DNA from: Spirulina subsalsa PCC 9445
Lineage (GTDB): Bacteria > Cyanobacteriota > Cyanobacteriia > Cyanobacteriales > Spirulinaceae
Direction of reading: 5' to 3'
DNA: 64,000 bases
Assembly (NCBI RefSeq): GCF_000314005.1
Contig: NZ_JH980292.1
Span: 860,530 to 924,529, forward strand
The position numbers and the translations under genes were made by a program. Below, one piece after another: positions 49,893-63,775 of the stretch; the stretch's first letter is position 1; each line of letters opens with the position of its first letter. The notes below the pieces were generated by a model. It worked only from the letters and a program-made list of their open reading frames with translations, had not been told where the DNA came from and did not search any database.

Positions 49893-50150
49893 CCAAGATT
49901 TAACCCATCAGTGGCCATCTCGCTAATCTGCCAAGACTTCTCCATCCTGCCAGTAGCGTTGAAATGCTGAACAGCTTACTCTCGAACATTCATCGGCAAT
50001 CGTTCAATGATCTGCCCACAGTTCGAGCCGTGCTTGAAGGAGGGGAAGCAACGGTCAATCCTGACCAATTCGCCCCAACTCGCATCCGAAATGGACAGAG
50101 CGAGGGAAGGATTTTTTAACATATTCTTCAGACCCAAGAGATATGATGGA

Positions 50151-51131
50151 ATGAGCAAAATCTCGGTATTTGGAACTGTTTATACTATGGGCGACATCTG
50201 GATAAAACTGGCAAAAACTCTCTTCATTACGTCCGGTTTACCGCTACTAAGTCTTGTGACAATGGCTAAACCTGCGATCGCACAAGCCATTATTACCCTA
50301 CCCAATGGAATACGCTGTGAGGGTCAATTTAACGGTTTTACAGGCCGTGGGATTTGTGAATATCCCGAGGGCTACTATCGCGGGACAATTGTTAATGGTC
50401 AGCGTCAAGGTCAAGGGGTTTTCTATTTTTCCGAAGGCAATGGGGGCGGGGATGATAATTTAGCCACCATTTATGAAGGACAGTTTAGCAATGACCGACC
50501 CAATGGACGGGGGCGGTTTATTTATGGCAATGATGACCGCTATGATGGAGAAGTGCTAAACGGAACACCCCACGGAACCGGTCAATTTACCTTTCGCTCC
50601 CTAGAAACGGAAAATTTCCTCTTTGTGGTCAACAATAATCTGATCACAATGGAAAATGTGGACAAGCGAGATAGCCGCTACTTTGGGGGAGTTCGTAACG
50701 GTCGGCCCGAGGGTCGCGGGACATTTGTCTATGGCATTTGCCAAGCCTATGGGGCAGAATTACGCTGTCTGCGCTACGATGGGATGTTTCGGAACGGTGT
50801 ACCTCACGGACAAGGTACAATGACCACTCCGGCCTGTTTGGTGAGAGGGGGACAAGTCGTTTGTTCTCGGTTTACGGGCAATTTCTATCGGGGTCAGCCC
50901 AACGGAGCGGGGCAAATTATCACAGCCAATGGCGATCGCTGTCAAGGAGAATTCAACGACTTTACCTTTAGTGGTCGCGGCACTTGCACCTATAGCAATG
51001 GCGATCGCTACAGTGGAGAATTACGCTTTGGAGCCCCCCACGGCATTGGGGTAGCCACCTATGCCAATGGTCAAAGTTATCGGGGAGAATTCGTCTTTGG
51101 CGCTCCCCGTGGTATCTCTCGGGCGCGGTGA
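50151..51131 (+). CDS. Secreted MORN-repeat protein
   Basis: A protein of about 326 residues. A hydrophobic N-terminal region (TLFITSGLPLLSLVTMAKPAIAQA) is a signal peptide with probable cleavage after AQA. The rest consists of seven or more MORN repeats, e.g. YEGQFSNDRPNGRGRFIYG, YDGEVLNGTPHGTGQFTF, YDGMFRNGVPHGQGTM, YSGELRFGAPHGIGVATYANG. Such beta-hairpin arrays bind lipids or other proteins; in bacteria the role is rarely known. ATG at 50187 is an alternative start. It faces the WD40 gene tail to tail (10 bp). Confidence 0.82.
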   Translation: MSKISVFGTVYTMGDIWIKLAKTLFITSGLPLLSLVTMAKPAIAQAIITLPNGIRCEGQFNGFTGRGICEYPEGYYRGTIVNGQRQGQGVFYFSEGNGGGDDNLATIYEGQFSNDRPNGRGRFIYGNDDRYDGEVLNGTPHGTGQFTFRSLETENFLFVVNNNLITMENVDKRDSRYFGGVRNGRPEGRGTFVYGICQAYGAELRCLRYDGMFRNGVPHGQGTMTTPACLVRGGQVVCSRFTGNFYRGQPNGAGQIITANGDRCQGEFNDFTFSGRGTCTYSNGDRYSGELRFGAPHGIGVATYANGQSYRGEFVFGAPRGISRAR

Positions 51132-51141
51132 CTTCCTCCCC

Positions 51142-53307
51142 CTAACGGCAACTCGTCGCCTCCCGTCGGCGAGAATATAACCGCACCTTCCCCTGATCAT
51201 CCCCCATCACCAAAACCACCCGGTCATTCACCAGCAATAGGTCAACAGCATTGATTTTAGCTCGTTGTCTCGCAATCACCTGTCCGCTAATATACTTACC
51301 CGCCCGTCGTCCCGTCTCCGTCAACACCCACAACATCAAGCGTCCATCATCCCCCCCACTGGCCAGATAACAGCCATCTTGACTCATAGCCACACTTCTC
51401 ACCGCCTTCTGTTCATCCTGTTCCCACTGATCCACAATAGAACAATCCTGACTATTGCCACCTAAACACCCCTCCAAATCCCAAATCATAATCCGACCTT
51501 GATTATCCGCCGTTGCCAATAAATTCGTCATCCGGGAAGTCGCTAGACTGGTAATATAATCATCCTGGCCTCCCGTGGGGTAGTTGATCGTTTGGCGCTC
51601 ATTCTCCGACCAATCCCACAAAAGCAACTGATTATAACGGCCAGCAATCGCTAAATAATCCTCCCCAGGCCCCACTAAAGCCAGATCATAGATAGCAAAA
51701 TCTAACTGTTGTTGCAATTGGGGCCCTGCAGGAGTCGTCAGTCGTTGAGATCCTCCTACATCCCACTTCAACACTAACCCACTCCCATGACCACTAAATA
51801 AATAGCGAGAATCTTGGGTAAACTCCAAATCTAACACCCGATCATCCCGTTGAAAAACCAAGGTTTGCGGAGTAGTACGTTGACCCAACAAATCCCATAA
51901 CTGCACCTCCCCCGTTTCCAACCCCATCGCCATCACATTATTATCCACCGGGCGATAATGGAGCGTGCGCACCGCTTTTTCCGTGGCCGTAAACACCCCC
52001 AACGCCTCCAAACGTCGAGCATTCTGCACCCCCCAACGTCTCACCGTTTGGTCATTAGACCCACTCAGCACCCAATCCCCCAACCCATTTAAACGCACAA
52101 CATTCACCGGAGCGCTATGTTCTCGTAACGTCGCCTTGAATCCCCACAACCACCACAGGCACAACACCACCAGCAAAGCTAACACCCCTTGCCACCACCG
52201 GGGAATAATAGGGAACACCTCCAACTCTACCTGCTGGTCAGGATTTTCTAACGTCACTCGCTCATCGGAAATCACCCCAGATAACTCCAGCAATAACTTT
52301 TTACTCAACCCCACCCAAGGACGACGGGGTTGTGCAATTAACTCTAACTCTTGGGTTTCTTGGGGGTTTACTGTCTCTTCAGAGGGGACAACTTCTAAGG
52401 TGCAGGCTTTGCGATCTTCTTCGCGTTGATACTTTAAAATATTCGCACTGACCTGTTGAGCAATATTACTTTGATTGGTGAAGGTTAAAGTATAAATAGC
52501 GGGGGGAACTTGCCGTTTGGGCAATAGATCCGAAAAGCGAAATTGATTAGACGCAACCGGAACACGCTGTTCTTTCGGGCTGATAGCAAAAAAGACATTT
52601 CCCGAGGGCAAAATTTCAATCTCTCCCCCTACCTTTACCCCCATTCCTTGGCTGGGAGTCGCTTCAATGTGGAAGGAATAGGATTGAGTGCGTAAGGCTG
52701 AGGAGTGACCGGATAAGCTGGGAATCTCTACGGATAATTCAAGTTCGTGCCACTGTTGAGAGGTTAAATCAATGGTTTTCTGGGATTCGGCGGAGAGATG
52801 CCACGCAGGCGGTAATCCTAATAGATTAACTTGTGTGGTAACAGTGCCTTTACTCGGATTTAATAAGCGCAAGGGAATGTCTATTTTAGCTCCCGGAATG
52901 GCTTGGAATGTGGTGACAGGTAATTCCCCTTTAAGTGCTGTAATGCCATCAGATTCTACGGTCAAGCGAATCACATGACGATCTTCGACTTGTAATTCAA
53001 TAGAAAAAATCCGCACGGTTAAGTTAACTAATCCAGCAAAACCGGGTAAGGGAGATTTAACAATCTCAATCGCAAATTCTGTGCTATCCCCGGGAGGCTT
53101 TTTGGTCGAAACTTCTGGGGCAATTGTCCACCAATCTTTAGAGGCTTTTTGGTCTAACCCTGCGGCTAAAATTTCGATTTGAAAGCTGGCAAATTTATCA
53201 CTTTGGTTGGTGACTTGAATCGTAAATTTTGCCCCGGATTTATCGGCTTTTAACGTTAAATCTTTATGAGAGAGTTGAGTGGTGAGTGAACTGGTTAAAG
53301 TGTTCAT
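51142..53307 (-). CDS. Membrane-anchored WD40-repeat protein
   Basis: A 721-residue protein. The N-terminal 350 residues contain Ig-like beta-sandwich segments (FTIQVTNQSDKFASFQIEI; FTNQSNIAQQVSANIL), resembling NEW3-type domains. A single membrane helix WWQGVLALLVVLCLWWLWG lies at about 370-389. It is followed by WD40 repeats (e.g. VRLNGLGDWVLSGSNDQTVRRWGV, MGLETGEVQLWDLLG, ATADNQGRIMIWDLEG, SGGDDGRLMLWVLTE) that would form one propeller of about seven blades. It closes the gene run with the three sensors and CIS baseplate genes. The propeller may be a scaffold; which side of the membrane it faces is not certain. Confidence 0.85.
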   Translation of the reverse strand: MNTLTSSLTTQLSHKDLTLKADKSGAKFTIQVTNQSDKFASFQIEILAAGLDQKASKDWWTIAPEVSTKKPPGDSTEFAIEIVKSPLPGFAGLVNLTVRIFSIELQVEDRHVIRLTVESDGITALKGELPVTTFQAIPGAKIDIPLRLLNPSKGTVTTQVNLLGLPPAWHLSAESQKTIDLTSQQWHELELSVEIPSLSGHSSALRTQSYSFHIEATPSQGMGVKVGGEIEILPSGNVFFAISPKEQRVPVASNQFRFSDLLPKRQVPPAIYTLTFTNQSNIAQQVSANILKYQREEDRKACTLEVVPSEETVNPQETQELELIAQPRRPWVGLSKKLLLELSGVISDERVTLENPDQQVELEVFPIIPRWWQGVLALLVVLCLWWLWGFKATLREHSAPVNVVRLNGLGDWVLSGSNDQTVRRWGVQNARRLEALGVFTATEKAVRTLHYRPVDNNVMAMGLETGEVQLWDLLGQRTTPQTLVFQRDDRVLDLEFTQDSRYLFSGHGSGLVLKWDVGGSQRLTTPAGPQLQQQLDFAIYDLALVGPGEDYLAIAGRYNQLLLWDWSENERQTINYPTGGQDDYITSLATSRMTNLLATADNQGRIMIWDLEGCLGGNSQDCSIVDQWEQDEQKAVRSVAMSQDGCYLASGGDDGRLMLWVLTETGRRAGKYISGQVIARQRAKINAVDLLLVNDRVVLVMGDDQGKVRLYSRRREATSCR

Positions 53308-53412: not shown

Positions 53413-55314
53413 TTAAACTCCGAAAAGGGTTTTCATTCGATTTTGAACCCAGCGCATAGGGTTATTATTAAAATCCTCATCAAGTAAACCATATTTGCGT
53501 AAAAGTTCTTGACGTTCTTGCAATTCGGCTTGATGTAAGTTGAGTTGGTGTGTAATTTCATCAGCTAAGGATTTATACTGTTTTAAAAGTCTGCCTAATG
53601 CTTCCTGATTGAGAATAAATAAACGAGTTTCTTCCCGAGTAATGACGGTGGCTGTGCGGGGAATGCCAATGAGTAAGGAAAGTTCACCAAAAAAAGCACC
53701 TGCTTTTAATTGTGTCAAGTATTTGTTGATTTTCTCTACAAAAATCTCTACTGTTCCTGAGACAATAATATAAAATTCATCCCCCGGCTCATCTTCCCGA
53801 CAGATATATTCTCCTGTATCAAAAACTTTTTGATAGCCTGCTTCAATAATTTGCTGAATTTCATGTTCTTTAAGGCTGGAAAAATAAGTCACTTTTTTTA
53901 GAACTTCAACAAGGTTTATTTCAATATTTTTAATGTCTCGAATCAGCTTCGCTTTTTTTTGAATTTGTTTAAGTTGAGTTAAGTTTTGACCTTGACCCCG
54001 GATGAGTTTTCGGTATTTATCGCCTAATTGTAACTGCATTTCTTGCAGTTGTTCTTCCAAACTCTGTTCTTGAGTATCTAGGGTAATGGCCATAGTTTGA
54101 AAGACGCGGGCAAATTCGCCAATTTCGTCAGAACGACGGGTTAAATCTTCAATGGTACTGGGTTCAAATTGTTGAGTTCTTAAGTCTGTGGCGGCTTCGT
54201 TGAGGCGTACAATGGGGCGGATGACCCAATAGCCTAAAATTAAGCCCAAGATAATGGCAAGACCCAAAGAAGCGAGGCCTAAGATAATAGAGAGACGAGT
54301 TTGTAGGTTCACTTGCTGCATAAAATCGGCTTTGGGTAAGACCACCACAATCAGCCAATCGAGTCCGTAGGCATCCCGGATGGGTTGAACTTGAACTAAA
54401 TGTTGTTTGCCTTGCCAGCGAAAGGAAAATTTTTGGTTATCGTCAAGGCTGGCAAAACTGCCCATGTTGTTTAGTAACATTTGGGCGGTATTTTGGATGA
54501 GGGGTTCTTGACTATTAATGGCTTCTACTCGCCTTAATTGGGCATCATAGGAGCCTTCTTGACCTGATGAGGCCACTAATAAACCATCTCGCTCAATAAT
54601 AAAGGTGTGTCCTGTTTTGCCCACTTGTAATCCGCGTAAAAATCCGCTTAGATTGCCCAAAGAAATATCAATCCCGAAAACCCCTTGAAGTTGTCCCGTT
54701 GCGTTAAAGATGGGGTAAACGGCAGGGAGGGCAATGTCTTCATAACCAACAGCCCAAATATAAATCGACCCCCAAGTGGCTTGTTTAGCGGCCACTGCAT
54801 CTTGATACCAAGGCCGTTGTCGGGGATCATAGGGTTCGGGTTCAATGGACTGCCTCGCCCCTCGGTTGCCTTGAGCATCTACTTCATAGTTGTAATAGTA
54901 GTAATCTGTCTCTGCATTGGAGCGGGCTAAAACGACTTGATTGTTGCGAACACGACCCGCCCCTACAAATTCCCGTTGTTCGTTGCCCCAGTACACATAG
55001 GCAAAGTAAGGGGTTTGTTGCAGTTGAGAATACAGGGGCTTTTCAAAGGTTGATAAGTCCTCGGGATTTAATAATCCTAGACGGAGTTGATCTGCATTCC
55101 ATTGATTGAGTTGATGAGGTAATTCAATTGTATCTATTACTTCTGTTTCAACTCGTTGGGCGATATTATCGACTAAACGTTGGGAGAGGTCATTGACTGT
55201 GCTCCGCCCGTTTAAAAAGGCTAAAAGACCTGTCACTCCTACCCCAAGGACGAGGGGGGCAATCATGACGATAGGGACGGTTCGACGAAGATAACGACTA
55301 GAAGACATGGGCAT
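53413..55314 (-). CDS. dCache-HAMP-cyclic-nucleotide-binding membrane sensor
   Basis: A 633-residue sensor. TM1 (about 12-32), a double-Cache extracytoplasmic domain with YDPRQRPWY and GSIYIW then VFGIDISL, TM2 (about 340-364), HAMP with RRSDEIGEFARVFQ, a coiled coil, and a cNMP-binding domain (about 493-590). The last reads GAFFGELSLLIGIPRTATV, so the phosphate-binding cassette keeps the Glu and Arg that grip cAMP/cGMP. No kinase, cyclase or methyl-accepting output is present. It is the third of three paralogues and has 15 bp to its neighbour, so one operon with the CIS genes is likely. Confidence 0.9.
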   Translation of the reverse strand: MPMSSSRYLRRTVPIVMIAPLVLGVGVTGLLAFLNGRSTVNDLSQRLVDNIAQRVETEVIDTIELPHQLNQWNADQLRLGLLNPEDLSTFEKPLYSQLQQTPYFAYVYWGNEQREFVGAGRVRNNQVVLARSNAETDYYYYNYEVDAQGNRGARQSIEPEPYDPRQRPWYQDAVAAKQATWGSIYIWAVGYEDIALPAVYPIFNATGQLQGVFGIDISLGNLSGFLRGLQVGKTGHTFIIERDGLLVASSGQEGSYDAQLRRVEAINSQEPLIQNTAQMLLNNMGSFASLDDNQKFSFRWQGKQHLVQVQPIRDAYGLDWLIVVVLPKADFMQQVNLQTRLSIILGLASLGLAIILGLILGYWVIRPIVRLNEAATDLRTQQFEPSTIEDLTRRSDEIGEFARVFQTMAITLDTQEQSLEEQLQEMQLQLGDKYRKLIRGQGQNLTQLKQIQKKAKLIRDIKNIEINLVEVLKKVTYFSSLKEHEIQQIIEAGYQKVFDTGEYICREDEPGDEFYIIVSGTVEIFVEKINKYLTQLKAGAFFGELSLLIGIPRTATVITREETRLFILNQEALGRLLKQYKSLADEITHQLNLHQAELQERQELLRKYGLLDEDFNNNPMRWVQNRMKTLFGV

Positions 55315-55329
55315 TCATGGGGTAGCATT

Positions 55330-56748
55330 TTAAGGGGTTTCGGTTGAATCTTGGCAATTTTGGGCTTGTTGACGGAGGTTTTGAGCGCGTTCACGAAGGG
55401 TTTTGTAGGAATCTTGCAATTCGGTTATTTTTTCTTCTGACCCGAGGGATGGTTCTGAACTGAGAGGATTATTGTCTTGTAACTCTTCGAGTTGTTCGCT
55501 TAAACTTTGGGTGCGATCGCCAACCACAACGGCCATATCCCGAAATGCCCGGGCAAACTCTCCCACTTCATCGGAGCGTTCTACTAAATCCTCTAAACTT
55601 TGGTCATCAAAACGGTGGGTCGTAATAGATAGCGCTGCATCATTCAAACGCATCACGGGACGCACTAACCAATTACTGAGGACAAAACCCACCCCGGCCG
55701 CTAAAATAAGGGCGGCTAAACCAAACAACACCGTCATTTGAGTTTGAGCATTCACTTGAGCCAAGAAATCGGCCTCGGGAATCACCACCACAATTAACCA
55801 GTCTAACCCTCCGGGATCTCGGAACGATTGCGCTCGGACAAAGTATTGATTTCCCTGAAACTTAAAGGACTGGTGATCTTGAGTTTGGACTAAACTTAAA
55901 TCCCCAAAGCTTGTCACCAGATAATTAGCGGTGGCTTGGAGTATGGGGTTTTGACTCTCCATTACAGAAACCCGTTGTATCTCTTCCCCCTCTATGATAG
56001 CGGTGGGATCACTGCCAGAACTGCCAATGAGAAAACCATCTCGTTCAATAATAAACACCTGTCCGGTTTCGGCAATTTTTAAGCTTTTGAGAAACTCATC
56101 AAGACGATTTAAGAACACATCCACCCCGAAAACCCCCACTAACTGATCTTGGGTATTTTTCACCGGATGAGTGGCGGTAATCGCTAATTGCCGACTATTA
56201 AAATCAGTATAGACTTCACTCCAGATGGGACGCTGGGCGGTAACGGTGGCGGTATACCAAGGACGAATCCGGGGATCATAGCGATCGCCTTCATGGACTA
56301 ATTGGTTGCGATCGCCCGTGGAAGTGGCACTATAGGTTAAAAATAGGGAATTGGTACTCACTCCAACCACCCCGATCTGGAATACCCCATTCACTTGTTC
56401 CGCCCCTCGGAACTCCCCAGTTTCCGTCCCCAAGTAGATATAACTCACCGTATCAAAAACCTGAATTTTATGCCAAAAATAGCGTTCTAAGAGGGGTAAA
56501 TTATCGAGATTAATCTGCTCATTTTGAAAGGCATCATAATTCAGTTGATTGATCTGCCGGGGAACCGCTAAAAATGTTTCGGTTTTTTGGGCTACTTGAT
56601 CCGCAATTTCCTGACTTAACTCAGAGGACAGTTGATCAATTGTTTGCCGGGTATTGTGAAACGCTAGTCCACCTGTTAAGCCAATGGCTAAAACAAGAGG
56701 GGCAATGGTGAGCAAAGGAATACTGGTTCTCAGGGAGATGTATTTCAT
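55330..56748 (-). CDS. dCache-HAMP membrane sensor without output domain
   Basis: A 472-residue paralogue: TM1 (about 10-30), double Cache, TM2 (about 338-361), HAMP (VERSDEVGEFARAFRDMAVV) and a short Gln/Glu-rich coiled coil to the end. The ligand signature is intact: Y-D-P-R-I-R-P-W-Y, then EVY 15 residues after the last Tyr, then VFGVDVFL. These are the residues of the dCache_1 amino-acid-binding motif. It ends without any kinase or methyl-accepting part. Eight and fifteen base gaps join it to its neighbours. Confidence 0.9.
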   Translation of the reverse strand: MKYISLRTSIPLLTIAPLVLAIGLTGGLAFHNTRQTIDQLSSELSQEIADQVAQKTETFLAVPRQINQLNYDAFQNEQINLDNLPLLERYFWHKIQVFDTVSYIYLGTETGEFRGAEQVNGVFQIGVVGVSTNSLFLTYSATSTGDRNQLVHEGDRYDPRIRPWYTATVTAQRPIWSEVYTDFNSRQLAITATHPVKNTQDQLVGVFGVDVFLNRLDEFLKSLKIAETGQVFIIERDGFLIGSSGSDPTAIIEGEEIQRVSVMESQNPILQATANYLVTSFGDLSLVQTQDHQSFKFQGNQYFVRAQSFRDPGGLDWLIVVVIPEADFLAQVNAQTQMTVLFGLAALILAAGVGFVLSNWLVRPVMRLNDAALSITTHRFDDQSLEDLVERSDEVGEFARAFRDMAVVVGDRTQSLSEQLEELQDNNPLSSEPSLGSEEKITELQDSYKTLRERAQNLRQQAQNCQDSTETP

Positions 56749-56756
56749 GGTCAGAT

Positions 56757-58160
56757 TTAAGCTTTGCGCCGTAAACTTTGGGCTTTTTTCTTTAAGGCTT
56801 TAAAGTAAGCTAATTCTAGGTTTTTGGCATCTTCTTTACCCTGCTTAAATTGGGAATTTTGTTGGTGTAGTTCCTGCACTTGATTGGCAAAGTTACTCTG
56901 GCGATCGCTAATCACTAACGCCATATCCTGAAATGTGCGCCCCAACTCCCCTAACTCATCCTGTCTTGAGGCAACCGCATATAAACTCATGGGCTGAAAT
57001 CGATCGGACTTCAAATCTTTCGCCGCTTGATTTAATTGTTCCAACGGACGAGTCACCCAAGAGGTAATATAAATTGTTAGACCAAAAGCAATCAGCAGAG
57101 CGACTACACAAACCACAATCATCATGCGAGTATTATTTTTTAACTCCGTTGTAAATTGAGATTCAGGAATAATAATCCCAACCATCCAATCTAAGCCTAA
57201 TTCATCTTGCCAAGAAATAATTTCAATAAAGTGTAATTCTCCTCCCACCCTGAACTTAAAACCTTGCGATTTCGGAACAGCATCCCAAGTTTTATACTCA
57301 TCAATTAACTGTTGAGCTACACCTTGAACCATCGGATGACTACTTTCTAGCACATTTCTTCGGGTCAATTTTCCATTCTCAACCTGATAGTCTGATTGAT
57401 CCTCGGAACTATGTGCAACAATTGTCCCATCTCGTTCAATGATAAAAATTGCTCCCCCATAGCTCATGGCGAGAGATTTCAAATACTTTTTGATTTGCGA
57501 TAAAACTAAATCAACTCCCATCACACCTAAGAGTTCACCTTGATTATTGTAAAAGGGATAACTCACTGAAATTGAAAAAGTGCCAGGATCTTCATCCCAT
57601 TGGTAAATATCACTCCACACAGCCCTGTTTTGTTCTACAGGATTCCGATACCATGCTTCATCCTGAAAATTATAAGTTTCCTCTTGCGTAATTACACTAC
57701 CCCGATTTCCTTGGGCATCCAAACGGTAAGTTATAAATGTTGGACGATCTTCTGTTGCATCTTGACTTTCTAGGTAAAGTTCACCATTCGGGGAACGCCC
57801 AATTCCTGTATAGTTCCCATTTTGATCGCCAAAATTAATAAAATCTACTGCATAGAGTCGCATTTGTTCGGCAAAATAACGGGTAATTTGTTCCCGATTG
57901 CCAACATCTAACATTCCCAATTGCACCACTTTTAAGTTCAAATCAGCCAGTCGGGTAGGATAGCTGAAATATTCATCTAATTGCTCCTGAGTACGTGAAC
58001 TGACTTCGGCTTTAAGTTGTATAATAGCGCGGGTAATAGCCCGTTGGCCACTCCACCATGAGAGCCAACCTACTACACTCACAACTAGGAAAATTTGCAG
58101 TATAAAGGGGATAATAAAAATCCAGCGCAAGGGCAATTTAGAACCAGAGTTATTAATCAT
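56757..58160 (-). CDS. dCache-HAMP membrane sensor without output domain (altered ligand motif)
   Basis: A 467-residue paralogue: TM1 (about 12-34), double Cache domain, TM2 (about 343-366), HAMP ([19 protein letters not shown]) and a short coiled coil with a basic end ([14 protein letters not shown]). In the ligand motif Arg is replaced: Y-N-F-Q-D-E-A-W-Y. The downstream DIY and VMGVDLVL remain. It could bind a different ligand or none. It lies first of the three, after a 114-bp repeat spacer. Confidence 0.9.
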
Positions 58161-58274: not shown

Positions 58275-59600
58275 TTACCGGGCTTGCATCATTTGCTGTC
58301 TCCACCAAGCGAAATGGAGTAAATTAATGCCCATTTCATGATTAGTCCGAATACTTTCTCTAGTTTGGTCTAACTCCTCATCAATGCCCCAAGCTTGGAT
58401 TAAATTACCGATAATAAAGACAATTCCACCCCAATTTAAGAGTTCAATCGGCTTATTTGAGACAGTGGGATATTGACTAAACAAGAAGGGGAGACGACGC
58501 AGAGGATGATGACGATCTAATTGTCCTGAGTTGGGGGTATGTACGCCAAAGGTTTCAACTAAATGCTGGGCTTCAGTTTTCAGTTGATTAATTTGGTTAG
58601 TAATTTCCTGTTGGGTGGCTTGGAGTTCTTGCATGAGTTCGTTTTTCGCCTCTCGTAAACTTTCATTGTCCCCAATATCCGCGATCGCCTCTTTTAACTC
58701 CCCTTCAATCACTTTTAATTCATCAATGACTGTTTCCCATGCGGGCAAATCTACAACAATCAGCCCGCCGTGCGCCACATATTGCTGTAGCAGTTGACTT
58801 GTGCCATTTGTTAGTTTAACAAAACGCTGATGTTGTATAGACAAAATACTATAACCTAGGAGTTGTTCAATTTTAACTTGTTCCAAATTAAGCGCGGTCA
58901 CTTGGGGATCTCCCGCTAAGGCCGGATAGAGTGCGGGTAAGGCAGAGAGAAGTTCTCCCCACTGTTCCTCCCGTTGGGGTTCTCTCGTGCCTTCTTGAGC
59001 CGCATAGGCAACGCGGACAAACCCTTTCGCCTTGGCCTGCACTTGTACCCGAGAGCGCAAATCTAACTGATTAAAACCGGGATTAAAGACATCCACGGGG
59101 TGACTTAATTCTACATTGCCCGGTTGTAGGAGAATCCGACATAATTCTACATCTTGATCTGTAGGGAGCGTCGTTTTTTCATCCAGGCGGAAGGTTTCCC
59201 GGACAATGGTAGGGGAAGTTTTCCATTGTAATTTTTCGGGGTCTACATAACGCAGCACTAAATACACCCAAAACGGATTTTTTTCCGCGACGGAGGCAAG
59301 GTGAAAATCTAGGGATTCACTGACTATAATAGGATTCCCCCGACTATCAATAGCAATGCCGGGTTGAATGCGTAACCAACGGCGATCGCGATATTCGGCC
59401 TTAATCTCCCCTGAAGGCTCAATAATAGATAATCCTAGACCACAGACAATCCCCCCCTGATTCAGGGCTTGATAATGGATATTTTGCCGTTGGCGGTGAT
59501 AATAATGGGCGAGTTGCCACAATTCGGCATTTAATAATAGACCATCGGTTACATTTAACCGTTCTAGGGGATGGATGGGAGGATAAGAAAAAGAAGTCAT
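58275..59600 (-). CDS. Conserved CIS-associated protein, function unknown
   Basis: A 441-residue soluble protein. The N-terminal pattern [49 protein letters not shown] is, from memory, typical of a protein encoded next to phage-tail-like baseplate genes; it may be a structural or assembly part of the machine. Residues about 300-350 are a predicted coiled coil ([35 protein letters not shown]). No membrane segment. It follows the tail protein gene by 41 bp in the same direction. Its exact place is not known. Confidence 0.7.
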
Positions 59601-59641: not shown

Positions 59642-60892
59642 TTAAGACTCAATCACCAAATCATAAGTACAAAACGCGGGCTTTTCTTGGTCTATTACCA
59701 CTTGAATTAAGGTTTTGTCCAACTCATGACCATCCGGGGGACGCAATCTGACCGTGAAATGGTACGGACGACCTCCCCCTAGGGTGGCATCTTGCCCTAA
59801 GTGGGTATCTCCCAAAACCAGGCCGCGACTAAAGGATTCATAGATACCGATAGGCTGTTCATCTTCTGAGGTACTTTCCACAAGGGGGAGTCCTGTCGCC
59901 AAGTGGAGGGCGAAACGTAGCCCTCGACGAGTCCCCCGCCAACGGTATAAGGCGATCGCATGGCGAATCAGAGGCCGTTGTTGGTCTAAACTCAAATTAG
60001 GTTGCAGCGGCCACCCCACCCAATGGGCTAAAAAGGGTAACAGGCTTTCGGGAGCCAATAGAGGATCTAAATAAGCCCAGAGGGTGTTTAAAGTTAAAAC
60101 ATCCGGTTCAAACGCCTGTTCAAAAATCTTGAGGAAACGTCCTAAAAAGTCAATTTCCCCAAAGATACGCGGGACAAAATCCCGGTAGAGACTTTGGGGG
60201 CGAATAAACACCTGAAAGTTCGCAAATTGAACCAGGGTAAATAGTTCCGTATCTAGAGAATCAACCGTTTCACCTTCCTGGGGAATTTCTTCCAATTCTC
60301 CCCCCACAATTTCCCCTTCTATTGGTTCAGAAAGATCAGGTTCTGGCGTGGGTTCTTCTTCAATTTCTCCCGCTTCTTCTGGCTCAATTTCCGCTTCCAT
60401 CGCCTCAGAACTTTCCGGTTCTGTCGGCGATTCTGGTTCAATGTTTTGGCTAATTTCTGCCCTTTCCTCAGCCTCTCTCCGAGAGAGTTCCGGTTCTTCT
60501 ACCGGGATATCACTACCATAAATATTAATCCGGGCATCGTAATCTAATCTCAGGGGAATTCTCGGGAGAAATTCCTGTTCAAAAAAGTCCGCCGGAACTT
60601 GAAACAACAGCGCCGCGTTGACCCGTTCCCCCGGTCGTAACAGGGCATTGTTATTAATAATCTCACACCATTCTGGGGGAAAATTTCCCTGAATTTGGGC
60701 ATTCCAGCGAAAATTGCGCGTCCCTCGATTTTCCAACTGAATCACCATTTCCGTCGGTTCTCCCGGATGCACAACCAGATTTTTAACACTCGAAGCGGTC
60801 ATGATTAATTCAGCTTCCCCGCTTGTCTCCTCAACAGGAGTAGCCGGGATAAGTTGCATGGGAATCAGTTGGAGATCAAGAGATTGAGTCAT
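59642..60892 (-). CDS. Tail protein I-like CIS baseplate protein with added N-terminal domain
   Basis: A 416-residue protein. The C-terminal part (about 218-395) matches the phage tail protein I-type family: SLYRDFVPRIFGEIDFLGRFLKIFEQAFEPDVLTLNTLWAYLDPLLAPESLLPFLAHWVGW and YRWRGTRRGLRFALHLATG. The N-terminal 145 residues form an Ig-like beta-sandwich (LVVHPGEPTEMVIQLENRGTRNFRW). Residues about 145-215 are a Pro/Glu-rich acidic linker. Two bases from the baseplate J-like gene, so strongly coupled to it. Confidence 0.88.
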   Translation of the reverse strand: MTQSLDLQLIPMQLIPATPVEETSGEAELIMTASSVKNLVVHPGEPTEMVIQLENRGTRNFRWNAQIQGNFPPEWCEIINNNALLRPGERVNAALLFQVPADFFEQEFLPRIPLRLDYDARINIYGSDIPVEEPELSRREAEERAEISQNIEPESPTEPESSEAMEAEIEPEEAGEIEEEPTPEPDLSEPIEGEIVGGELEEIPQEGETVDSLDTELFTLVQFANFQVFIRPQSLYRDFVPRIFGEIDFLGRFLKIFEQAFEPDVLTLNTLWAYLDPLLAPESLLPFLAHWVGWPLQPNLSLDQQRPLIRHAIALYRWRGTRRGLRFALHLATGLPLVESTSEDEQPIGIYESFSRGLVLGDTHLGQDATLGGGRPYHFTVRLRPPDGHELDKTLIQVVIDQEKPAFCTYDLVIES

Positions 60893-60894
60893 TT

Positions 60895-63120
60895 CTAAAT
60901 CACGTTAATAATGTGTCCCAAAGAAGCACGAGTATCAGACCAAGAACAAATTAAACCGTTGGGACCCGGGTCAATCATGGAGGTGGGGGGCATCCTTGTC
61001 CATTGTCCCTCCACTTGCTGACTGGCAAAGAGTTGAATTGCCCCAAGATAGAGGATTCCGGGGACTTTTTGGAAAACGGCAATAATATCTGACGGGTACA
61101 CTGGACGACCAAACGCCCAGCCTTGTCCATCGGGCCCCCCGGTGAGGGGATTGAGGAAACGATATAAAGCAACACGCAGACGGGAGAGGATTTCTTGTCG
61201 GGCTTCGGGGGTGTTATAAATGGGTTCGAGGGAAATTTCCGTCTGGACACTGACCCCAATATACTGAGGTTCCTCACATTTAACTTGAATGCCTAATAAA
61301 GTGCGATCGCGCAAATAAGCCAATAAATGCTCTTTTAACTGGGGTGTCAAACTAAACTGCTCTGGAGCAATCCCCTGTTCCTCATCAATGCCTCGGGTGT
61401 TGGTTTGTGGCACCACCAACAATTGAATGCTCCCCCCATGACGAGCATCCGCCGGCAAACAGCGCACCCGAGCCACCGCCCCCTGTCCTGCTTGTAGGGC
61501 AAGGGTTTCAAAATCTTCTGGTGTAACAGCGCGATCGCGACTGCGCAACAAACGGGGCACCCGAATCACCGCCTGTTCCAACGTTTCCCCATCCGAACCA
61601 TTCTTAGCTGGCTGATAATTCGTCACCTGAGTCACATAAGGCACCGCCGACTTTAACACCGTTAGAGTGTTAGGCTGCACATTACCCATCGCCCCCCCTC
61701 CCGTATGATAAGCCGCCATCACAATCCGCGACCCCCGAGGGGGAATCGCCCCATATTGCCGTTCCAAACGCTGCATTTCCCCCGGAATCGCCCCAGCCCG
61801 GTTTTGTCCATCAAACCACGTTAACTCTCCCGTCGTGACCGTTTGTAAGCCCCCCTGTTGTTGACCTCGGCGAACCGTCTGGGTCGGTAAACTCATCGCC
61901 TCCCGAATTAACGGCCCAAACTGAATTTCACCCGTAATGGAATCTAAAGTGTAGTGGAAATCATTAGGGCCAGAATCGGCAAAATCTGGCACTTCCTGCC
62001 AGACCTGGGGCATTCCCAAAGGAGTCACCACCACCAGATACTCCTCCTCCGACTTGCGAGGCAAAATGGGCGTTTCCTGTAATTGGAACTTCTGACCCGG
62101 CGTGCCATCACTCACCCCCACCTCCTCCCGTTCCACCCGTCGCCCTTGACTCCCATTCACCGTTCCCCCAATCGCCCGCACATCCACCCCCACCAAACGA
62201 GGAGAAGCACTATAAGGCGGTCTTTGGGGACTGGGAGGACTAAAACAACAACGCACCCAACGCCCCTGATAAGTGGAAAATTGAGTCACGGGGAAAGTTT
62301 GGGGCAAGTGCAGCACCACATCCGCCCCCTGTAACGGGTTGCCCCCTTCTAGCACCAGTTGATTAAAACTAAAACCCTGGGTAGTATCATCAGACTCCTT
62401 CAACAACACCGACACCCATTCCGTGCCATTCCAAGCCTCCCAAATTCGGGGCGGTGCTTGGGGATTAATCCCGGTGGGAGTTGCCTCCTGTCCTTGGACA
62501 TTAACCGCTACAACATTGCCTTCTAAAGGCTCATCCGGGTCAAACACCAAATAAAAACAATTGCCCGGTTGGGGTTGTTCATCAAAAATGTCCAACTCTG
62601 GCCCCCCCCATGCCCCATCAGGTTGTTGACTCCAAAAATTCACCAAGGGATCTCGCAATAATTGGGGGGTGGTTTCTTGATGTCGGGCTTTCAAGAGATG
62701 ACGAAGACGCGGTTGACCAATGATTAACGGATGATCGGTATTAAATACAATCGCCGCATCAGTGGCCGTGCGTAGGGTGGAAACTTCAATCCCCCTCGGA
62801 ATAGTGTAGCGTTCCGGTAACTCTCCCACGAGGTAAAACGTGATCGGCGTAGTGGCTGGAGTAGGAGGGTGTAGACGAATGCCCAGCAGTTCCAAAAACG
62901 TGATGTATTGACGACGAGGGACTTGGTTAAAACGGATGAGCATTTGATCCGTTAACCAAGCAAACAGTTCTACCAACGTAATCCCCGGGTCACTGGGACT
63001 GTAATTCGTCCACTCGGGACAATACCGGGGAATGCGTAAGAGACATTCTTCGATTAAATCCTCAAAGGTGCGGTCATCGAGGTTCGCTTTAGGGAGATTG
63101 GGTAAGAACTGGAATTCCAT
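60895..63120 (-). CDS. Baseplate J-like CIS protein (TIGR02243-type)
   Basis: A 741-residue baseplate wedge protein of the putative phage baseplate protein group. The start MEFQFLPNLPKANLDDRTFEDLIEECLLRIPRYCPEWTNYSPSDPGITLVELFAWLTDQMLIRFNQVPRRQYITFLELLG is strongly characteristic, and the C-terminal third (ARVRCLPADARHGGSIQLLVVP; EISLEPIYNTPEARQEILSRLRVALYRFLNPLTGG) is the Baseplate_J part. It lies between the gp25-like and tail-protein-I-like genes, the standard order in CIS clusters. Confidence 0.92.
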   Translation of the reverse strand: MEFQFLPNLPKANLDDRTFEDLIEECLLRIPRYCPEWTNYSPSDPGITLVELFAWLTDQMLIRFNQVPRRQYITFLELLGIRLHPPTPATTPITFYLVGELPERYTIPRGIEVSTLRTATDAAIVFNTDHPLIIGQPRLRHLLKARHQETTPQLLRDPLVNFWSQQPDGAWGGPELDIFDEQPQPGNCFYLVFDPDEPLEGNVVAVNVQGQEATPTGINPQAPPRIWEAWNGTEWVSVLLKESDDTTQGFSFNQLVLEGGNPLQGADVVLHLPQTFPVTQFSTYQGRWVRCCFSPPSPQRPPYSASPRLVGVDVRAIGGTVNGSQGRRVEREEVGVSDGTPGQKFQLQETPILPRKSEEEYLVVVTPLGMPQVWQEVPDFADSGPNDFHYTLDSITGEIQFGPLIREAMSLPTQTVRRGQQQGGLQTVTTGELTWFDGQNRAGAIPGEMQRLERQYGAIPPRGSRIVMAAYHTGGGAMGNVQPNTLTVLKSAVPYVTQVTNYQPAKNGSDGETLEQAVIRVPRLLRSRDRAVTPEDFETLALQAGQGAVARVRCLPADARHGGSIQLLVVPQTNTRGIDEEQGIAPEQFSLTPQLKEHLLAYLRDRTLLGIQVKCEEPQYIGVSVQTEISLEPIYNTPEARQEILSRLRVALYRFLNPLTGGPDGQGWAFGRPVYPSDIIAVFQKVPGILYLGAIQLFASQQVEGQWTRMPPTSMIDPGPNGLICSWSDTRASLGHIINVI

Positions 63121-63166: not shown

Positions 63167-63619
63167 TTAATACTCTCGACTCAAGTTTTCTTCTGCCATT
63201 GCTTCTTCTGGGGGCATTAAGTAAAAAGGATAAATGAGAGTACCCGGGACATAATTAGCCCGGAGACGATAGTTAATTTCAATCAACACCCGACCCCGTT
63301 CAGAATCGGGAATTGTTTTCACCTCATCCAAGATGATGCGCGCTTCCCAAATACTCAGTGCCTCCTCCACGAAGCGGCGAATCGAAATAAGGGTGTCTAA
63401 ATTGAGGGGAGCAAAGGTTAATTCCGACAACCGAGAGCCAAAATCAGGACGATAGACCCGTTCGCCGATACTCGTTTCCAAAATAATGCGCATGGACTCT
63501 TCCACGTTCTGCTGGGCAGCACTCAGTTGAATAGCACCCTGGGGGTTAACCCGCCAAGGAAAGGCAAATCCTTGACCCAGATAATCGGTCGGGGGTTGAG
63601 AACCGGGGAGTAAGGGCAT
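63167..63619 (-). CDS. gp25-like CIS baseplate protein
   Basis: A 150-residue gp25/GpW-type protein, the central baseplate unit where sheath assembly starts. FPWRVNPQGAIQLSAAQQNVEESMRIILETSIGERVYRPDFGSRLSELTFAPLN is the conserved core. ATG 63619 (MPLLPGSQPP) is chosen over TTG at 63640. It heads the minus-strand run seen here; the tail sheath and tube genes are not found upstream in the window. Confidence 0.92.
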   Translation of the reverse strand: MPLLPGSQPPTDYLGQGFAFPWRVNPQGAIQLSAAQQNVEESMRIILETSIGERVYRPDFGSRLSELTFAPLNLDTLISIRRFVEEALSIWEARIILDEVKTIPDSERGRVLIEINYRLRANYVPGTLIYPFYLMPPEEAMAEENLSREY

Positions 63620-63775
63620 GGACAGATTTTTCCTAGTCAATCACCATGCTGTTCAATCTAGGCGGGGCAACGGTTAATGACCATTCGACTAAGGTCGAGT
63701 TTGCCGATTTTGAGGAGTGGGGAATCAGGAATTGATCTCGCCGTTCCCCGTCTGTCTTTCCTCGTAGGGGAGTTG

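Follow-up and report, generated by a model that had tools for sequence, protein, structure and literature searches.

Cache-HAMP receptor genes beside the baseplate genes of a split contractile injection system in Spirulina subsalsa, and a Cis13-like helical hairpin as their candidate contact

The window analyzed here is a stretch of 64,000 nucleotides (contig C2, positions 860530-924529) from the 5.3 Mb genome of Spirulina subsalsa PCC 9445 (G000). It carries a row of minus-strand genes that runs from gp25 through baseplate J, Tail_P2_I and a Cis13-like gene to three sensor genes (A, B and C) and a transmembrane (TM) WD40 gene, and thus sets membrane receptors of the Cache-HAMP type beside baseplate genes of a contractile injection system (CIS). 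A first-pass annotation, made from the sequence without database searches, had described the sensors as three paralogous TM-dCache-TM-HAMP-coiled-coil proteins, encoded on one strand with gaps of 8 bp (A-B) and 15 bp (B-C), and lying directly downstream of CIS baseplate genes. The reading frames are exact and the domain assignment holds for all three; gp25, J and Tail_P2_I do lie upstream, but a further gene, the Cis13-like gene at 58275-59600, intervenes. The features are as follows, in window coordinates.

63167..63640, minus strand: gp25-like baseplate wedge (Cis9-like), first in the row; PF04965 71.6 bits, cut-off 27.2
60895..63120, minus strand: baseplate J (Cis11-like); TIGR02243 643.5 bits, cut-off 155.8
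59642..60892, minus strand: Tail_P2_I wedge (Cis12-like), 416 amino acids (aa); PF09684 35.3 bits, cut-off 20.6; TIGR02242 106.4 bits, cut-off 51.85
58275..59600, minus strand: Cis13-like baseplate adaptor, candidate signal receiver; weak CIS13_fam match, 37.4 bits, cut-off 370; DUF4159 23.7 bits, cut-off 25.9
58551..58727, minus strand: helical hairpin of the Cis13-like protein, codons 292-350; AlphaFold2 helices 292-309 and 313-350
56757..58160, minus strand: sensor A, 467 aa, TM-dCache-TM-HAMP-coiled coil with a short C-terminal tail motif; dCache_1 59.3 bits, HAMP 33.9 bits
55330..56748, minus strand: sensor B, 472 aa, TM-dCache-TM-HAMP-coiled coil with tail; dCache_1 77.6 bits
55354..55437, minus strand: tail helix of sensor B, codons 438-465; AlphaFold2, low confidence
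53413..55314, minus strand: sensor C, 633 aa, TM-dCache-TM-HAMP-like-coiled coil-cNMP with tail; dCache_1 72.9 bits, cNMP_binding 74.9 bits
53575..53829, minus strand: cyclic-nucleotide (cNMP)-binding domain of sensor C, codons 496-580; PF00027 E 5.1e-21
51142..53307, minus strand: WD40 propeller with one hydrophobic segment (364-382), its N-terminal part Ig-like by reading of the sequence; WD40 82.6 bits

The dCache_1 scores of all three sensors exceed the Pfam cut-off of 45 bits, and simple hydropathy places two hydrophobic segments around each dCache domain, at residues 13-31 and 340-358 in sensor A. Against a Pfam cut-off of 25 bits, HAMP is found in sensor A, scores 20 bits (below cut-off) in sensor B, and is unlisted in sensor C, whose HAMP region is nevertheless matched at E 2e-33 by a HAMP-to-tail profile (A2) built from paralogues of sensor C with sensor C itself left out. 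Neither Pfam nor NCBIfam lists a kinase, cyclase, methyl-accepting chemotaxis protein or GGDEF/EAL output domain in any of them, and NCBIfam matches to kinases and GepA cover the shared sensor-HAMP part only and fall far below cut-off. The first-pass view that the sensors lack a kinase, cyclase or chemoreceptor domain therefore stands, but it missed the end of sensor C, where residues 496-580 match cNMP_binding (cut-off 27.5 bits) and resemble the corresponding domains of PKA, PKG and SthK. This domain contains the stretch FGELSLL-IPRTA, which we take to be the phosphate-binding cassette. By domain content sensor C is a cyclic-nucleotide effector, with predicted binding.

Ligand hints are clearest for sensor B, which matches the amino-acid chemoreceptors Mlp37 (5ave, E 1e-11) and PctA (E 6e-10) in sequence, and whose model matches in fold also. 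The amino-acid dCache motif comprises, in PctA numbering, Y121, R126, W128, Y129, Y144 and D173 (PMC10104139). The equivalents in sensor B are Y157, R162, W164, Y165, the Y of VYTD and the D of GVFGVD. Sensor C has RPWY and GVFGID in the same stretches, while sensor A has EAWY in place of RPWY and so lacks the ligand arginine. The ligands of sensor B are probably amino acids, to judge from these residues. Although its domain is like those of the dCache_1 chemoreceptors PctA, Mlp37 and Mlp24 by sequence, fold and motif residues, sensor B differs from them in having a HAMP without a methyl-accepting domain, and in ending with a short coiled coil and a tail helix. Its model has a disordered linker (residues 426-440) followed by the separate tail helix (438-465), and a similar short tail is common to sensors that occupy this position in other genomes, even where their sensor domains differ.

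A complete CIS at the window locus is ruled out. Upstream of gp25, a DUF29 gene is followed by genes that match no CIS family, and there is no sheath or tube gene at the locus; the sheath, three tube genes, two Pvc16-type genes and an AAA (ATPase) gene are found at C2:3162-3170k, and the tube adaptor, CIS_tube and spike at C2:2090-2098k. The locus is nonetheless identifiable as part of a CIS, in that gp25, J and the Cis12-like gene stand together over their cut-offs, with sheath, tube, spike and ATPase elsewhere in the genome. In a sample of 291 genomes from the order, J orthologues were found at E 1e-60 in 80, and the C2:3162k sheath was matched at E 1e-120 or better, a threshold set after a gap in the E-values was seen, in 78 of these 80 J-positive genomes and in none of the 211 J-negative genomes. 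This co-occurrence argues that the window row and the C2:3162k genes form one machine. The C2:2090-2098k genes are putative parts of it; in two other genomes (L059, L061) a spike gene lies upstream of gp25. The nearest solved relative of J is the Streptomyces coelicolor CIS baseplate (9gtp, E 2.1e-108), and no chain of the Anabaena structure 7b5h is matched at E <=0.001; for the sheath, S. coelicolor 8bky is matched at E 1e-115 versus 1.2e-52 for 7b5h. Both 9gtp and 8bky belong to the S. coelicolor CIS (PMC12237407, PMC10066040). By this nearness the present machine is a candidate for the Streptomyces-type (IId) cytoplasmic CIS, a type marked by free cytoplasmic particles that fire in dying cells.

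Two further observations concern CIS genes of this genome. A second CIS, which has two genes each for sheath, tube and a J-like protein, lies at C2:1134-1153k (L015:1-18933), and its sheath is also nearest, among solved structures, to that of the S. coelicolor CIS. Between the tube adaptor and CIS_tube, at C2:2091k (L018:7017-11567), is a gene for a protein of 1516 aa, perhaps a tape measure or an effector, which has no NCBIfam match and one implausible Pfam match (Kisspeptin, 45 bits).

Linkage of the sensors to the baseplate genes is conserved well beyond this genome. We examined 60 J neighborhoods, 42 of which contain a recognizable Cis13-like gene; one or more Cache-HAMP receptors directly follow that gene, ahead of WD40, in 22 of the 42, and none does so in the other 20. 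In a second, partly overlapping set of loci from named organisms (the best 80 of 188 relatives), 26 loci carry sensors behind the Cis13-like gene; these come, among others, from Spirulina, Planktothrix, Calothrix, Roseofilum, Acaryochloris, Planktothricoides, Stenomitos, Laspinema, Oscillatoria, Coleofasciculus, Pseudanabaena and Arthrospira. The closest named record is Spirulina subsalsa FACHB-351, with a Cis13-like protein 88% identical to that of the window. The same succession (J, P2_I, Cis13-like, sensor(s), WD40) is found again in genomes whose J is 53-64% identical, and the row thus reflects more than chance. The first-pass annotation had proposed a search for such conservation beside gp25 and J genes, and had regarded a linkage unique to this genome, or sensors that are unlinked and co-vary with an unrelated system, as fatal to its idea. 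Conservation rules out a chance or unique linkage. Further, full-length matches of sensor C (those reaching at least residue 610 of the query) occur in 27 genomes among the matches listed (to about E 2e-79), all of which belong to the 80 with J; beyond the range listed, weaker matches of full length may occur in other genomes.

The broadest count comes from a table of 115 distinct Cis13-like proteins, which omits open reading frames (ORFs) of <=385 aa and, out of 133 ORFs, 19 whose 240-residue core duplicates that of another. With five contig-end rows set aside as undetermined, 110 distinct loci are assessable, and sensor presence was assigned by reading the gene-order tables. In 45 of these loci the gene after the Cis13-like one encodes a Cache-HAMP receptor, and 65 have no adjacent sensor. 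The set of three envisaged at first pass is thus not a fixed one: the slot holds one, two or three receptors, which may be of the dCache, dCache-cNMP or Tll0287-like (DUF3365) heme Cache type, or it is empty. All three Tll0287-like slot receptors tested (L056, L060, L171) match PF11845 at 138-150 bits and have a HAMP, which in L171 is below cut-off. In one genus (g41), of which six genomes were examined, P2_I, Cis13 and three sensors lie together but away from J at four loci (L132, L133, L135, L136; the J surroundings in the L136 genome lie outside the loci compared), whereas at a fifth (L134) J is still attached to the row. Taken together, these patterns make a dedicated role of the sensors in the CIS very likely.

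The candidate receiver of a signal from the sensors is the Cis13-like protein. Its AlphaFold2 model has a mean pLDDT of 87.5, and the C-terminal domain has a DUF4159/GATase-like fold (4i66, Z 15.6 over residues 194-433). Likeness to known baseplate parts is weak in the N-terminal part, for which the Anabaena CIS baseplate and the N-domain of TssK are the top Foldseek rows, all at E >1e-3, and a Haloferax virus baseplate is a weak match at Z 7.1. A sequence search of the PDB with the Cis13-like protein and its alignment returned nothing convincing. No 19-residue segment reaches a hydropathy of >=1.6, i.e. the protein has no TM segment. Inserted within the C-terminal domain is a helical hairpin, of 47-71 residues across Cis13-like proteins, which is modeled here with block-mean pLDDT of 84-94. 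In alignments of the 115 distinct proteins, the hairpin is present in all 45 sensor-bearing loci, compared with 5 of the 65 without an adjacent sensor. We also considered the WD40 protein, encoded within five genes in 39 of the 45 sensor loci, as the partner that might explain the hairpin; this is unsupported, as 24 loci have WD40 with neither sensor nor hairpin, and six, all from g41, have sensor and hairpin without WD40. The hairpin tracks the sensors, not WD40. No sensor-bearing locus of the sample lacks the hairpin, whereas the hairpin can persist after the sensors are lost or arise before them.

Other genes around the row are noted for completeness. Convergent to the WD40 gene, across a gap of 10 bp, is a MORN-repeat gene (window 50007-51131; PF02493, 113 bits), and approximately 5.4 kb upstream of gp25, on the opposite strand, a protein kinase gene is followed by a CHAT-TPR gene (L002:594-6041). 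Downstream of WD40 in many relatives (L061:844-6894 and others) is a gene for a protein of about 900 aa with a NEW3-type domain and, by reading, a TM segment, which is followed in some relatives by pentapeptide-repeat-like and TPR-like genes; the window row stops at WD40. At one sensorless locus (L078:8618-10045), an eCIS_core protein (PF13699, 93 bits) encoded slightly downstream of the Cis13-like gene is a candidate CIS effector. A scan for promoters and terminators gave no useful boundary, with 27 promoter-like sites where 17.5 were expected and seven terminator-like sites where 17.3 were expected.

The presence of the hairpin in every sensor-bearing locus provides a concrete candidate for the output by protein contact that was suggested at first pass; mechanical action on firing or assembly, as then proposed, remains at the level of inference. 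From gene order and its conservation, domain content, the swapping of sensor types and the co-occurrence of sensor and hairpin, all of which can be read directly, we infer direct contact, docking, gating of firing and the identities of ligands. The dCache domains would lie on the periplasmic (or thylakoid-lumenal) side and recognize small ligands; in other genomes the slot is occupied by heme-Cache domains, from a family with nitric oxide (NO)-sensor properties. HAMP would then relay a ligand-driven change to the cytoplasmic coiled coil. The output there may be a protein contact, with tail helices and coiled coils binding the hairpin of the Cis13-like protein and no kinase or cyclase involved. 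Such contact could hold loaded CIS particles at the membrane, permit firing upon a change of ligand state, or both, and in sensor C the cNMP domain would add a second, cytoplasmic input. The balance tilts slightly towards the three genes being membrane receptors dedicated to a split, Streptomyces-like CIS, which they dock or gate by direct contact; that gating runs directly through the Cis13-like protein is an even call. More tentatively, and somewhat short of an even chance, this may be a chemosensory injection machine, in which swappable Cache-HAMP receptors without enzymatic output dock or fire the CIS by contact between coiled coil and hairpin. In that arrangement hairpin and receptor would be gained and lost together, and contact with a mechanical machine would, with the same reservation, take the place of phosphorylation or a second messenger.

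Several observations weigh against direct contact or limit its reach. Neither sensor nor hairpin is found in 60 of the 110 assessable loci, and the machine can thus do without them. At five loci (L100, L177, L184, L187, L194) the hairpin is present but no sensor lies next to it, and a profile search of the whole genome of the first of these (G210) at E 1e-12 revealed no such sensor anywhere. In g41 genome G110, a P2_I gene lies beside J (L080), and Cis13 and the sensors lie on another contig (L137), which begins at Cis13. Because the loci are related, the raw hairpin counts overstate the association. A tree of J (53 rows) yields only three well-supported independent contrasts, in which the hairpin changes in the same way as the sensors in 2.6, in the opposite way in 0, and does not differ in 0.4, on average; a tree of Cis13, built with the hairpin columns removed, yields four, of which 1.9 go the same way, 0 the opposite way, and 2.1 show no difference. 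A sign test on three or four contrasts cannot reach 0.05, and the sensor-hairpin association, corrected for kinship, is suggestive. The tail helix of sensor B, one of the elements that would make the contact, is modeled with low confidence (AlphaFold2 block means of 61, 73 and 54 over residues 441-470). Finally, neither end of the receptors is exclusive to injection: the tail motif also occurs in receptors unlinked to the CIS, which rules out the tail of sensors A and B as CIS-specific, and the cNMP-plus-tail half of sensor C is also found in an MscS-type channel of the same genome, which does likewise for a CIS-specific contact through the tail of sensor C.

As non-CIS receptors end in the same way, the tail is best regarded as an older module. 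The MscS-type channel, with a C-terminal cNMP domain by Pfam, is encoded at C2:352045-352557 (L110:568-2019) and is matched by the profile of the sensor C half at E 1e-62; sensor C has the look of a dCache-HAMP receptor fused to the regulatory half of a channel of this kind. Among unlinked receptors, one encoded in this genome (C2:3609588), possibly a further CIS part, has matches in 12 of the 291 genomes. Seven of these are J-negative, with matches confined to the N-terminal part (up to about residue 308 of the query); the five near-full-length matches are all J-positive, and all come from the family of the window's organism, in which 11 of 13 genomes are J-positive. Further unlinked tail-bearing receptors were looked at in loci L165-L167. 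In G039, a Tll0287-like heme-Cache-HAMP receptor with the same kind of tail (L165:1492-2553) lies away from the CIS; the Cis13-like protein of that genome has no hairpin, and its CIS row (L052) has no sensor. Tail-bearing receptors without an output, and without a CIS link, also lie near genes for ParA/MinD-family ATPases, at C2:3607-3611k in this genome (L128:3092-6677), where the receptor has no Pfam family match, and at L167:503-3144, where a Nif11 domain precedes dCache-HAMP. Such receptors and ATPases possibly constitute a separate receptor-ATPase system.

That last arrangement bears on the main rival to direct contact, namely that the receptors, although part of the CIS, work through a separate soluble protein encoded elsewhere (a MinD/ParA-like ATPase, kinase or cyclase) and bound by the tail helix, so that expression or positioning is regulated and the baseplate is untouched. 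A receptor with a similar tail is encoded two genes downstream of the ATPase gene at L128, and directly beside it at L167, and the cNMP domain of sensor C implies that a cyclase elsewhere must feed that sensor. However, Pfam searches of the window-row genes revealed no such ATPase, and the co-occurrence of the hairpin with the sensors also speaks against it, as do the four g41 loci, where the sensors stay with P2_I and Cis13 away from J. We regard this alternative as unlikely, although it is the strongest of those considered.

A more improbable alternative to gating by contact is that the receptors are passive membrane anchors, in which Cache forms an extracytoplasmic plug, the baseplate is tethered and nothing is sensed. 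The lack of a catalytic output would fit, as would the loss of the ligand arginine from sensor A and the membrane association of related systems, such as the CIS in thylakoids of Anabaena (tCIS; PMC8894136) and CisA of S. coelicolor (PMC12237407). Yet sensor B retains the amino-acid motif residues, heme Cache can substitute for dCache in the slot, and HAMP is retained, all of which would be needless in a plain anchor.

Very improbable, in our judgment, is an operon of convenience or horizontal co-transfer, whereby truncated relatives of chemoreceptors or kinases are co-transcribed with the baseplate genes and their function is unrelated to injection. It is true that dCache domains are frequent in this genome (24 matches), and that the larger part of the assessable loci, as counted above, have a Cis13-like gene without an adjacent sensor. 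Against this, the linkage is kept across Spirulina, Planktothrix, Arthrospira, Calothrix, Pseudanabaena, Acaryochloris and Laspinema, the sensors have been relocated jointly with P2_I-Cis13, and the listed full-length matches of sensor C are confined to J-positive genomes. Least probable of all is a suicidal role like that in Streptomyces, with the sensors reacting to cell stress or lysis products and turning the CIS on its own producer instead of on other cells. This might be argued from the closest solved relatives, which come from the cytoplasmic CIS of S. coelicolor that mediates stress-induced cell death (PMC10066040, PMC12237407). The proposal is compatible with docking or gating by contact and differs from it in purpose only.

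Receptor-mediated docking or gating would extend what has been described for other injection machines. In S. coelicolor, firing of the CIS needs the membrane protein CisA (SCO4242), encoded just downstream of the baseplate genes (PMC12237407), and the sensor genes occupy a comparable place beside relatives of that baseplate. CisA is described as a protein with a single TM segment, whose N-terminus is largely unstructured and whose C-terminal domain has been likened to periplasmic substrate-binding domains; the sensors are set apart from it by two TM segments with dCache between them, by HAMP, by a cNMP domain in one of them, by one to three copies, and by the accompanying hairpin in the Cis13-like protein. 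The tCIS of Anabaena PCC 7120 (7b5h) is likewise cyanobacterial, with Cis11, Cis12 and Cis13 baseplate genes and membrane association (PMC8894136), but J and sheath of the present machine are closer to the Streptomyces CIS, and the Cis13-like protein has no hydrophobic TM segment, unlike the Cis13 of tCIS with its transmembrane domain. A Cis12 extension and a Cis19 crown are further marks of tCIS. TssK connects the baseplate of the type VI secretion system to its membrane complex (PMC5813253), and its N-terminal domain is the one recovered, at the poor E-values given above, for the Cis13-like model; here, however, the C-terminal domain is GATase/DUF4159-like and carries the hairpin, and the membrane partners would be Cache-HAMP receptors. 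Finally, the DUF3365/Tll0287 family, or sCache_heme, is a heme-c Cache, one member of which has properties typical of an NO sensor (2026 preprint, PMC12889525). The slot receptors with PF11845 share this domain, have no output domain listed, and adjoin the CIS baseplate.

A CIS with a membrane adaptor is therefore already known, and it is the Cache-HAMP receptors as CIS parts that appear new: no description of them was found in the open-access literature, a weak negative given that most subscription papers fell outside the search. The words cache, HAMP and sensor are absent from the main texts of PMC8894136 and PMC8213781, and sensor and WD40 from PMC12998442. If the present proposal is correct, then there is a class of cyanobacterial CIS with identifiable, swappable ligand receptors, for which the trigger that makes an intracellular or membrane-docked CIS fire would become testable. 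The output of these receptors would be neither phosphotransfer nor a second messenger, and the junction of hairpin and coiled coil would be a candidate for the part that couples ligand sensing to the injection machine.

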